A DNA stretch of 37,589 nt from Planctomycetota bacterium (GTDB taxonomy: Bacteria; Planctomycetota; Planctomycetia; Planctomycetales; Planctomycetaceae): positions 1 to 37,589 of the forward strand of contig JAFMMM010000011.1 of NCBI GenBank assembly GCA_017859815.1, given 5' to 3'. Positions 8,147-10,732 of this stretch are shown here, one piece after another. Below the pieces are notes generated by a model. The model did no database searches, was not told the origin of the DNA, and was given only the letters and a program-made list of their open reading frames with translations. A program made the translations under genes and the position numbers. How positions within the stretch are numbered: position 1 is the first letter of the stretch; the number at the start of each line of letters is the position of its first letter.

Positions 8147-9871
8147 ATGAAACTATTCGGTCTCCCAATCGTTGCCATATTTGCGCTGTTGCCTGGTCTG
8201 ACAACGGCTCAAATCGCAGTCTCCGAACCACCCGAGTCTGCTGTCAGTGAACAGGATCTGCGGGCACAGAAGCTGGCGGTGACGCTGAACTATTGCCACG
8301 CAGCTCTGCACAGAATTCGTGGAGCCGGATCGGTGGATACCGTGCGCGAAGAGCAGCGGCGGATTCTGAACAACATTGATCTGAATCAGATCAATGACCC
8401 GGAGGTCATCGCACTGTACCGATCCATTCTCGAGGAAATCGGAACCCTGCAGATCTCCACCCGAGAACAACAGGTGATTTCCGACGGCTTTCAGCGCGAC
8501 GTGCAGCGAAAGATGGGAACCGACCTATTCGTGATGGGGGCTCAGGCAGCCACCGGACAACTGGGATCGCTGATTCAGACGGGGGCGGCGAGCTGGTGGG
8601 ACTATCGCAATACGCAGGCACGAGCTGATGCAGAACACTGGAAGGTCGAACGAGGACAGCTGCAGTCGGTCCTGAACCGCTCCTCCACATTTCTCGACAG
8701 TTTTTGGAAGCTCAGTCGGGACAACAACATTCCCGACCGCTGGCTGCTTAGAGCCAAAGATCTCGACAAACTGTCGGAAAACCTCTCAATCACAGATCCT
8801 GAAACGCGACTGCGAGCGCTCGAGCGACAGGAACGCTTCATGCAGTGCTATCCGCCTTACTGGTACTACGTCGCCAGAACCCAGCAGAAGATGGGGAACA
8901 CCGCCGCCGCAGAGGTGACCTTTCGCAAACTGGTGGAAATCGGCAAAGGGCATTTTCGGCAGGATGACATGCTGGCCGGCAGTCTCGCCAACCTCGCACT
9001 GATGCAGGAATCCCGACAGGATCGTACAGCACTGCTGACCGCACAGGAGGCGTGGGAGCAGTCCTCCGTCAACTGGGAAGCAAATCTGATTTGCGCGGCG
9101 ATCATGTCTCGCCACCGGCGATACGACCTGGCCGAAGAACTCCTGCTTTGCAACGTCGAGGAAAGTCTTGAGGAGGAGCAGAGTGCTGTCAGCCTCGTCT
9201 GGCTCTACCACGCTACTGAGAATCGGCAGCAACTGGCAAGGATGCTGCAGAACCCCCGTTATGTCAGCCTGATTCCCATCCCAGGTCTGCTGCTCTGCGC
9301 GCAACAATTGGGCTCGGACAATCTGCCGGACGCCGCACGGACCCAATTGGCATCCACGCTGACGGCCAGCCCAGGCAGAAACGGCGGGGTCAACACCATC
9401 TCGGTTGCTGCAGTCCACAGCTGGAAACTCAATGAAGCCGAAGCAACAATCACTGCTGGACCACAGACATTCTCGTACGCCAGTTACCGACAGACCGAGA
9501 CGCGTACGGAGGTGGCTTATACCCCTTCACTCCGCTCAAACGTCTCCCGCGACCCAATCTCCGGAGATCTCGTGATGTCGCTGCGTTACCCATCCACACC
9601 GCCCGTTGAGGTAACACTTTGTCCATGGCGAACTGTTCGTGCACAACGACAGAATCCGCCCCGGATTTCCGGCGTGTTTGGCCCGTTGCTGGGGGCCCCC
9701 GCGGCTCGTCAGCCGAATGCCGCCGCCGTTTACAAGGTTTCCGAAATTCGCATTGCTGACCTGCGGCTCACCTTCGAGTTGACCGGAACGCCGCTCGCTC
9801 AAAGCGAACCGTCACAACTGGCTGCAGACGATGATTTCAGGCGGCCCACCCACACGACGGCCTTCCGCTAG
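8147..9871 (+). CDS. Secreted TPR-like protein of unknown function
   Basis: 574 residues. Residues 1-21 (MKLFGLPIVAIFALLPGLTTA) are a signal peptide. Residues about 30-220 are predicted to be mostly helical. Residues about 225-390 contain helix-turn-helix units that read like degenerate tetratricopeptide repeats (for example YWYYVARTQQKMGNTAAAEV and NLICAAIMSRHRRYDLAEEL). The C-terminal 180 residues look beta-rich. The middle stretch AATGQLGSLIQTGAASWWDY may be amphipathic. No catalytic motif is seen. It is probably periplasmic or outer-membrane associated and works as a protein-interaction scaffold; that is inference from the repeats alone. It stands alone on the plus strand and converges on the small lipoprotein gene, with a strong hairpin between them. 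Confidence 0.85.
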   Translation: MKLFGLPIVAIFALLPGLTTAQIAVSEPPESAVSEQDLRAQKLAVTLNYCHAALHRIRGAGSVDTVREEQRRILNNIDLNQINDPEVIALYRSILEEIGTLQISTREQQVISDGFQRDVQRKMGTDLFVMGAQAATGQLGSLIQTGAASWWDYRNTQARADAEHWKVERGQLQSVLNRSSTFLDSFWKLSRDNNIPDRWLLRAKDLDKLSENLSITDPETRLRALERQERFMQCYPPYWYYVARTQQKMGNTAAAEVTFRKLVEIGKGHFRQDDMLAGSLANLALMQESRQDRTALLTAQEAWEQSSVNWEANLICAAIMSRHRRYDLAEELLLCNVEESLEEEQSAVSLVWLYHATENRQQLARMLQNPRYVSLIPIPGLLLCAQQLGSDNLPDAARTQLASTLTASPGRNGGVNTISVAAVHSWKLNEAEATITAGPQTFSYASYRQTETRTEVAYTPSLRSNVSRDPISGDLVMSLRYPSTPPVEVTLCPWRTVRAQRQNPPRISGVFGPLLGAPAARQPNAAAVYKVSEIRIADLRLTFELTGTPLAQSEPSQLAADDDFRRPTHTTAFR

Positions 9872-9967: not shown

Positions 9968-10192
9968 TTAGATGACGCCCCCGTGCACGCGATAAGGCGT
10001 GGCGAGGTCCGGCTGATCCAGACCCCAGATCCGCTCCCAGATCTCGGGGATGTGACGGAGGCTCTCCGACTGGTAGATGAGCTGACGTGCGCGGATATCC
10101 GGATTTGGGCTCCAGATCGGCATGGCACAGCCTGCAGTCATCATGCAGCAGACAAGCATCAGTCCTACGAACAGTCGCAAACGAATCTTCAT
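9968..10192 (-). CDS. Small planctomycete-type lipoprotein
   Basis: 74 residues. A short basic n-region and hydrophobic core end in a lipobox-like MTAGC with the candidate lipidated Cys at 22; the -3 residue is Thr, not the usual Leu. The mature part is only about 52 residues and looks strongly constrained: RARQLIYQSESLRHIPEIWE, then RIWGLDQPDLATPYRVHGGV. I recognise this general pattern (RQLIY, EIWERIW, PYRxHGGVI at the extreme C-terminus) from small conserved planctomycete proteins; its function is unknown. The start at 10192 is preferred over a longer frame (10216) because AAGGA lies 7 bases before it. It sits downstream of the HU gene on the same strand with a 138-base gap, so cotranscription is possible. 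Confidence 0.8.
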   Translation of the reverse strand: MKIRLRLFVGLMLVCCMMTAGCAMPIWSPNPDIRARQLIYQSESLRHIPEIWERIWGLDQPDLATPYRVHGGVI

Positions 10193-10330
10193 CGCTAGGT
10201 CCTTCCCTGGATACACCCAACTCTTTCTGCTGCGACACCCGGTCGCAAACCAGTCAGACAGTTGTCAGATGATCCCGGAGTTCGAAACGGCTTCCTACAT
10301 TCGCGATGAAATCAGGGTCCAATGCGACCT

Positions 10331-10732
10331 TCAGTATCCGGATGAAGTTCCGGACGGCGGATATCCCGGGGGTTGCCACGCGGGAGGAAGTCCTGTGCCG
10401 GGGGGCTGTTGAGCCAATTCGGCTGCGGCAGAAAGGCGTTCTTCTTCCTGTCGTTCCATTTCCCGTACTTTTGCTTCCATCTCTTTGCCCGGTTTAAATG
10501 TCACGACGAATTTTGCCGGCACTTCAACCTGACCACCCGTTCGAGGATTGCGAGCTTTCCGAGCTGCCCTTTTCTTCACTTCGAAAACTCCGAAGTTCCG
10601 CAGCTCGATTCGTCCATCCTCCACAAGAGTATCGATGATGGCATCGAACGTTTTCTGAACGATTTCCTTGGTCTTCAGCTGCGTAAGGCCCAACTCATCG
10701 GAAATCGCCTTCACGATCTCTTTCTTGGTCAC
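10331..10732 (-). CDS. HU/IHF-family DNA-binding protein with proline-rich C-terminal tail
   Basis: 133 residues. Residues 1-92 are a complete HU/IHF fold: [16 protein letters not shown] at the dimer-forming N-terminus, the [20 protein letters not shown] beta-arm entry, the [15 protein letters not shown] arm with its DNA-intercalating Pro, and [10 protein letters not shown] at the end. Such proteins bend and compact DNA in the nucleoid. Residues about 93-133 are an added tail, first charged ([10 protein letters not shown]), then Pro/Gly/Gln/Ser-rich ending in Tyr. Standard HU stops at about 90 residues. The start codon is GTG with GGGAG 7 bases upstream; there is no alternative ATG. A near-consensus promoter lies just upstream, fitting a highly expressed gene. 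Confidence 0.95.

Follow-up and report, generated by a model that had tools for sequence, protein, structure and literature searches.

The lipoprotein gene described here, found in the window (the whole 37.6 kb stretch of planctomycete DNA that was analysed), belongs to an apparently undescribed family, which occurs in several lineages of Planctomycetota and is nearly invariant in one class, namely that of the window (hereafter, the own class). By whole-genome profile search, a homologue was detected in 390 of the 397 genomes of the own class (379 of 385 when the better genomes were counted), nearly always in one copy. The original prediction, made from the sequence alone, had mentioned similar small proteins in other planctomycetes, which proved to be an understatement. 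The protein probably performs a basic job in the cell envelope, as suggested by its presence in several lineages of the phylum and its almost unchanged sequence throughout one class.

The gene and its predicted product

The open reading frame is coded on the minus strand by positions 9971-10192 with the stop codon at 9968-9970, and its 74 residues start with MKIRLRLF and end with TPYRVHGGVI (Table 1). The N-terminus has a basic start and a hydrophobic core followed by Gly21-Cys22; that is, the basic N-region, the hydrophobic core and the Gly/Ala-Cys lipobox of bacterial lipoproteins were all recognised, by eye and by pattern. Judging from these features, the protein would be exported and lipidated at Cys22. 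A lipoprotein of this length at this position had been proposed in the original prediction, together with a mature part of about 52 residues ending in PYRVHGGVI; both claims were borne out, the mature part being 53 residues by our count.

The GGAAGGA box ends 7 nt before the ATG; in many near relatives, the frame upstream reads this stretch as PGKD or a similar sequence. An alternative start, GTG, is possible eight codons before the ATG. The ATG was favoured because it has the better ribosome-binding site and because the near relatives align from it.

The gene was said to lie beside an HU gene, and indeed that gene is located 138 bp upstream on the same strand. In the HU protein of the window, the HU domain is followed by a Pro/Gly-rich tail of about 40 residues, and a second, weaker HU homologue is present elsewhere in the source genome (G000:C409). 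On the other side, a 574-residue, probably exported protein with weak TPR-like matches is encoded at 8147-9871 (plus strand), convergent with the lipoprotein gene; it is beside the gene also in some near relatives (L004-L007, L013-L015).

Table 1. Features of the lipoprotein locus in the window
Feature	Positions	Strand	Basis
Lipoprotein gene, 74 codons and stop	9968..10192	-	ORF and translation; homologue in 390/397 class genomes
Predicted type II signal peptide, residues 1-21, lipobox ...TAG/C	10130..10192	-	Sequence; cleavage inferred
Mature lipoprotein, 53 residues from Cys22	9971..10129	-	Length exactly 53 in 86/89; dN far below dS
Predicted helical amphipathic stretch, about residues 31-56, break near P49	10025..10102	-	Alignment and AlphaFold
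Conserved C-terminus TPYRVHGGVI, predicted without fixed structure	9971..10000	-	Alignments; pLDDT <50
Likely Shine-Dalgarno sequence GGAAGGA	10200..10206	-	Read by eye
HU-family DNA-binding protein, 133 aa, conserved upstream neighbour	10331..10732	-	Pfam Bac_DNA_binding, E 3e-30

Conservation and selection within the class

The mature sequences of the own class were taken from 118 loci, which overlap in origin (some genomes are in two collections, and the window's own locus is included twice) and thus are not independent; 89 of the sequences are distinct. Among these 89, the mature part is exactly 53 residues long in 86, the Gly-Cys lipobox is present in all, and the C-terminal end is HGG plus two residues in 86, the three exceptions being SGLIL, GGLGF and GGTGP. 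The last two residues are VI, II, IL, LI, IY, IF, IM, GF or GP, and the residue at +2 after the Cys is always A, I, V, F, L or M, never Asp. The C-terminus, which had been called invariant-looking, stood as such in the great majority of the class; however, it differs in the three exceptions, and the HGG is lost outside the class.

The close-relative scan gave 58 loci, of which 57 were planctomycete records encoding the lipoprotein, more than chance would explain; the other (L061, labelled Bacteroidales) was rejected, as it matched residues 1-22, the leader, only. Weak matches in the source genome outside the lipoprotein locus (E 0.4 and 1.15) were also rejected. In the alignment of the window sequence with 40 of the 57 planctomycete relatives, 20 columns were invariant over the 41 sequences, including R34, L38, S42, E43, R46, W52, R54 and W56 in the helical stretch.

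Substitutions in the mature part were counted against eight relatives (about 36 synonymous and 116 non-synonymous sites). The six closest relatives showed 0-7 non-synonymous versus 19.5-28.2 synonymous changes, and the two more distant ones showed 12 versus 31 and 24.8 versus 25.2. For the five nearest relatives, dS to the window was about 1 or more and dN was 0-0.053. This computation shows that the lipoprotein gene is under strong purifying selection.

Distribution in the phylum

The seven genomes of the own class in which no match was found (G668, G444, G465, G533, G557, G581 and G582) may reflect gaps in draft genomes or divergence. Note that the whole-genome searches scored part of the first-look candidates in many genomes (e.g., 15 of 62); therefore, the numbers of genomes without a match are upper bounds. 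When 391 genomes drawn evenly from the phylum were searched, the class-level profile had 63 matches, 61 in the own class and two outside, and no own-class genome was apparent among the non-matches listed. One of the two outside matches (G202:C60) lies inside an unrelated 518-residue ORF and was taken as chance. The other, in G260, is a lipoprotein with ...DDWNRIWLRDKPSMLTPYPV.

When the G260 protein was used as the query, 34 of the 198 genomes of its class were matched, and a profile of 15 sequences from that class matched 109 of the 198 at E <= 0.01. Sixty loci of the G260 class were read; the match was either within a small ORF or at the C-terminus of a longer one. A script identified a lipobox-like Cys in 59 of the 60, for some of which the Cys is outside a true leader; in the remaining locus (L185), AGC is present and was missed by the script pattern. 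The own class and the G260 class were joined by profile-profile comparison (probability 91%, E 9.7e-7, 33 columns). Further lineages gave a third set of 19 loci (L211-L230, L229 excepted), most of which are short ORFs with C..TDxxHNxxHxxxxxxDmxxxHxDIDxxLGLDEPSxL or looser variants; in L216, the lipoprotein is at the end of a 303-residue frame. Our guess is that the G260 class corresponds to Phycisphaerae and that anammox-type planctomycetes are among the third set. Outside the own class, other short ends replace the HGG, and the helix and DxPSxL remain. The consensus of the C-terminal module in the alignment defining the family is DWDxxWxxDxPSxLT. The window protein, row 1 of this alignment, has both the lipobox and the module, and fits the consensus loosely (IWERIWGLDQPDLAT).

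Two profiles of the family were used, one including the leader (A4) and one of the mature part (A5). With A4, 225 of the 391 phylum genomes matched at E <= 0.01; at E <= 1e-5, 82 of 330 genomes outside the class did so among the matches listed, some of them being contributors to A4. In the control, which was Bacteroidota only, A4 matched 29 of 99 genomes at E <= 0.01 (best 1.4e-4), all matches starting at model positions 1-6 and none extending past position 53 of 68. Because A4 thus matches Bacteroidota through the leader, only its stronger matches were trusted and A5 was built. At E <= 0.001, A5 matched 73 of 195 genomes, namely 27 own-class genomes listed and 46 others, whereas no control genome among the 99 was matched (best 0.032; seven of 99 at E <= 0.1). 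The 46 others are from 168 other-lineage genomes, a denominator that assumes that the A5 non-matches, which were listed in part, include no own-class genome. Eight of the 46 had contributed to A5 and 38 had not, some of the latter being close kin of contributors. In the 122 other-lineage genomes without an A5 match at E <= 0.001, divergence and true absence are indistinguishable.

A profile search had been proposed as a check of the original prediction, and within Planctomycetota, which the family search covered, it recovered the family in both the own class and other lineages. The protein had further been called lineage-restricted. This holds in that the confirmed loci of the close-relative scan are all planctomycete and the control phylum gave no A5 match at E <= 0.001; however, the family extends beyond close planctomycetes into several lineages. 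Among 72,556 plasmid records, none matched the lipoprotein.

The module in large exported proteins

In f6, one family of the own class, the C-terminal module is also carried by large exported proteins of about 700-1340 residues, usually at the very end. One of these, a 1314-residue frame with repeated GTWY-type stretches (L112:454-4395, plus strand), was compared with 16 f6 genomes, and 14 matched. The last 30-45 residues of the query aligned inside a long ORF in nine genomes (G324, G403, G417, G429, G446, G467, G518, G539 and G563; the G518 row has one stop in frame), and a separate shorter ORF with the same module is also present in eight of the nine (not in G563). The ends of the large proteins were read in seven of the nine (G429 and G518 are not among them). 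In five, HGGIY or SGSIY directly precedes the stop: G324 (L112), G403 (L232), G446 (L238), G467 (L235) and G417 (L234). In G563 (L239) the large protein ends with HGMTW after part of a second module copy, and in G539 (L240) the module is followed by at least 20 further residues, the frame being still open where the locus ends. In the L238 large protein, nearly the whole mature part is present, from YSADPDVRTQQL on.

In the G260-class relatives L204 and L206-L209, a longer N-terminal part precedes the same C-terminal module. Taken together with the ends of the large proteins, these arrangements suggest that the mature part is used as one unit, mostly placed at a free C-terminus, whether or not it carries a lipid of its own. 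Separately, a 296-residue frame with membrane helices (L113:3934-4821, plus strand) has a copy of the helical part (GRTRQLIYTSENFSEISDQWDQAWSLDNPES) near, not at, its C-terminus.

Gene order

The original prediction had suggested that synteny with HU be checked. Among the 64 class loci flanked by 2.5 kb or more on each side (the window locus is not one of them), HU is directly upstream on the same strand in 61; 20 of these 61 have YkgJ upstream and pyrD downstream, nine have pyrD only, seven have YkgJ only, and 25 have neither. Two of the three exceptions (L105 and L108, family f6) have none of these neighbours, and the lipoprotein persists there; in the third (L121), HU is located 1.4 kb farther upstream, with pyrD, trpS and acpS following. 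Over all 118 class loci, HU is upstream in 114, L121 included; the four others are two contig ends (L004 and L119) and the two separations in f6. The median HU-lipoprotein gap was 191 nt, which is approximate, since alignment starts were used in place of start codons. In the whole window, HU was the only one of these neighbours found, with no match for YkgJ, pyrD, trpS or acpS. Gene names other than HU were assigned by reading the sequences.

Some of these orders recur outside the own class. In the G260 class, the order YkgJ-HU-lipoprotein was found in three of 60 loci (L175, L178 and L181), HU is 3 kb upstream of the lipoprotein gene in L161, and YkgJ is within 2 kb upstream in 14 of the 60; in the third set, pyrD is directly downstream in L213. 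Orthology of the three groups is supported by these shared orders (YkgJ-HU-lipoprotein and lipoprotein-pyrD), which point to a common ancestor; outside the class, most single loci have neither the YkgJ-HU nor the pyrD order. The gene for diadenylate cyclase, cdaA, is directly downstream in eight G260-class loci (L163, L164, L166, L167, L189, L193, L194 and L197) and upstream in L190. A YbbR-like gene was observed after cdaA in L163, L164, L166 and L167. In the third set, dnaX-ybaB-rpoN are upstream in 12 loci (L211, L213, L214, L217, L219-L224, L228 and L230), ten of which also have recR. An amidohydrolase-like gene follows the lipoprotein gene in eight of these 12 housekeeping clusters.

Structure prediction and library searches

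The AlphaFold models of the window protein (helices at 31-43 and 49-56) and of the mature part alone were of modest confidence (mean pLDDT 72.0 and 70.8, respectively), and in both models the last ten residues were below 50. The fold search of the PDB with the model gave two unusable matches (E 7.7 and 8.2). The sequence search of the PDB gave three designed TIM barrels (E 0.0078-0.015) and one other chain (E 1.1), all of which were rejected. No family of Pfam or NCBIfam reached its cut-off with the window protein; the best Pfam E value of 51 mature sequences was 0.02, and 41 sequences with the leader touched 31 NCBIfam models, mostly of other small lipoproteins (best E 0.001), the positions matched in the first member being mainly in the leader. 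In the copies searched, no Pfam, NCBIfam or PDB family was thus convincingly matched.

Proposed role and alternatives

We tentatively favour, at somewhat less than even confidence, an outer-membrane lipoprotein whose C-terminal module docks on one conserved envelope partner. The lipidated Cys22 would anchor the protein in the membrane, most likely at the periplasmic face of the outer membrane; the location follows the +2 sorting rule known from enterobacteria, as the +2 residue is never Asp. The docking module for a single cell-envelope partner would consist of the short, Trp/Arg-rich helix and the DxPSxL(T)-tail after it, and the lipoprotein would be a small permanent subunit or an assembly aid of an envelope complex. 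The fixed length and fixed C-terminus in the class are what would be expected of a tail that has to extend into a pocket and match it; both the outer-membrane location and the single partner are inferred. Two of the seven large proteins whose ends were read (G539 and G563) carry the module without the expected ending, which counts against the docking model, as do the modest AlphaFold confidence with the last ten residues left unstructured, the fruitless fold search and the other-lineage genomes without an A5 match; given the sequence drift and the loss of HGG outside the class, it is not certain that one conserved partner surface exists across the phylum. A wider proposal, which we regard as rather doubtful, is that the lipid-anchored Trp/Arg helix and DxPSxL(T)-tail are an ancestral docking module of Planctomycetota, marking a phylum-specific outer-membrane complex, and that its grafting onto large exported proteins recruits them to the same site.

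The window lipoprotein might instead be an assembly aid of the lipopolysaccharide or beta-barrel machine, holding a barrel partner in a productive state as LptM would; we consider this unlikely. Its size, lipid anchor and single copy would fit such a role, and in one lineage the gene adjoins rpoN, which in E. coli neighbours lpt genes. However, no lpt or bam gene was recognised among the conserved neighbours listed, the NCBIfam search gave no LptM match of the window protein at E <= 1, and four of the 41 relatives touched the LptM model (best E 0.0024), as they did many other lipoprotein models. LptM (YifL), the enterobacterial lipoprotein of the lipopolysaccharide translocon, is likewise small and conserved, and forms an assembly with LptD and LptE at BAM (PMC10567701). 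It resembles the present family in being tiny and kept in one lineage, with a mature part of about 50 residues (residues 20-67 were modelled), whereas the stretch right after the Cys is described as the more widely conserved part of LptM (PMC10567701) and the C-terminal half is that of the planctomycete family.

A structural role like that of Braun's lipoprotein (Lpp), as a tether or spacer of the outer membrane and the cell wall, is also improbable, slightly more so; this role and the LptM-like one are the main alternatives. Lpp/OprI are likewise small helical lipoproteins of similar mature length (58 residues in Lpp); moreover, the planctomycete protein occurs in several lineages of the phylum, and its module also ends large exported proteins. 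Against a tether, none of the 89 distinct class sequences has a C-terminal Lys for peptidoglycan linkage, and the predicted helix is not long and uninterrupted, having a conserved Pro inside. The Lpp/OprI alanine-zipper model was not matched by the window protein at E <= 1, scored 13.5 bits against a cut-off of 43 in the first relative scanned, and was touched by four of 41 relatives (best E 0.016).

A joint function of the lipoprotein and HU as the reason for the conserved order, e.g., tying the nucleoid state to the envelope, is very improbable, as the two proteins sit in different compartments, the pair is split in the two f6 loci where the lipoprotein persists, and most other-lineage loci have no HU nearby, some having cdaA, rpoN or MFS genes instead; such a function would be consistent with the retention of the pair in the 25 of 64 loci without YkgJ and pyrD within 2.5 kb and with its recurrence in another class. 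The link to HU is most likely due to co-transcription or to an ancient gene order rather than to a common task. Lastly, that the protein is a small lipoprotein with a toxic or lytic action (entericidin or Rz1/spanin-like), or that the gene is a mobile passenger, is hardly credible: there were weak matches to entericidin and spanin models, the latter far below cut-off (O_Spanin_T7, 15 of 25 bits; P2 Rz1, 15.4 of 27 bits) and covering mostly the leader (residues 9-31 and 9-34), and the gene is nearly always single, in conserved order and without a match in the plasmid records.

The literature search gave no description of the lipoprotein family or its setting, which is no proof of absence. The nearest published object found is GMBLW1_25620 of Tuwongella immobilis, a predicted planctomycete-restricted lipoprotein of the cell-wall preparation (PMC8567305), the comparison being by description. 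It is far larger than the 8-kDa window lipoprotein. Most of its homologues are given as 93-158 kDa (PMC8567305), a size that, as described, recalls the large exported proteins carrying the module, one of which is the 1314-residue frame.

Significance

The construction of the planctomycete envelope is described as an open question, many phylum-specific proteins having no assigned function (PMC10632474). The lipoprotein is very small, is present in nearly all genomes of one class and is strongly selected, and its role can be tested directly. It also gives annotators a family that is absent from the copies of Pfam and NCBIfam searched, and the module copies on the large proteins predict where those proteins go.
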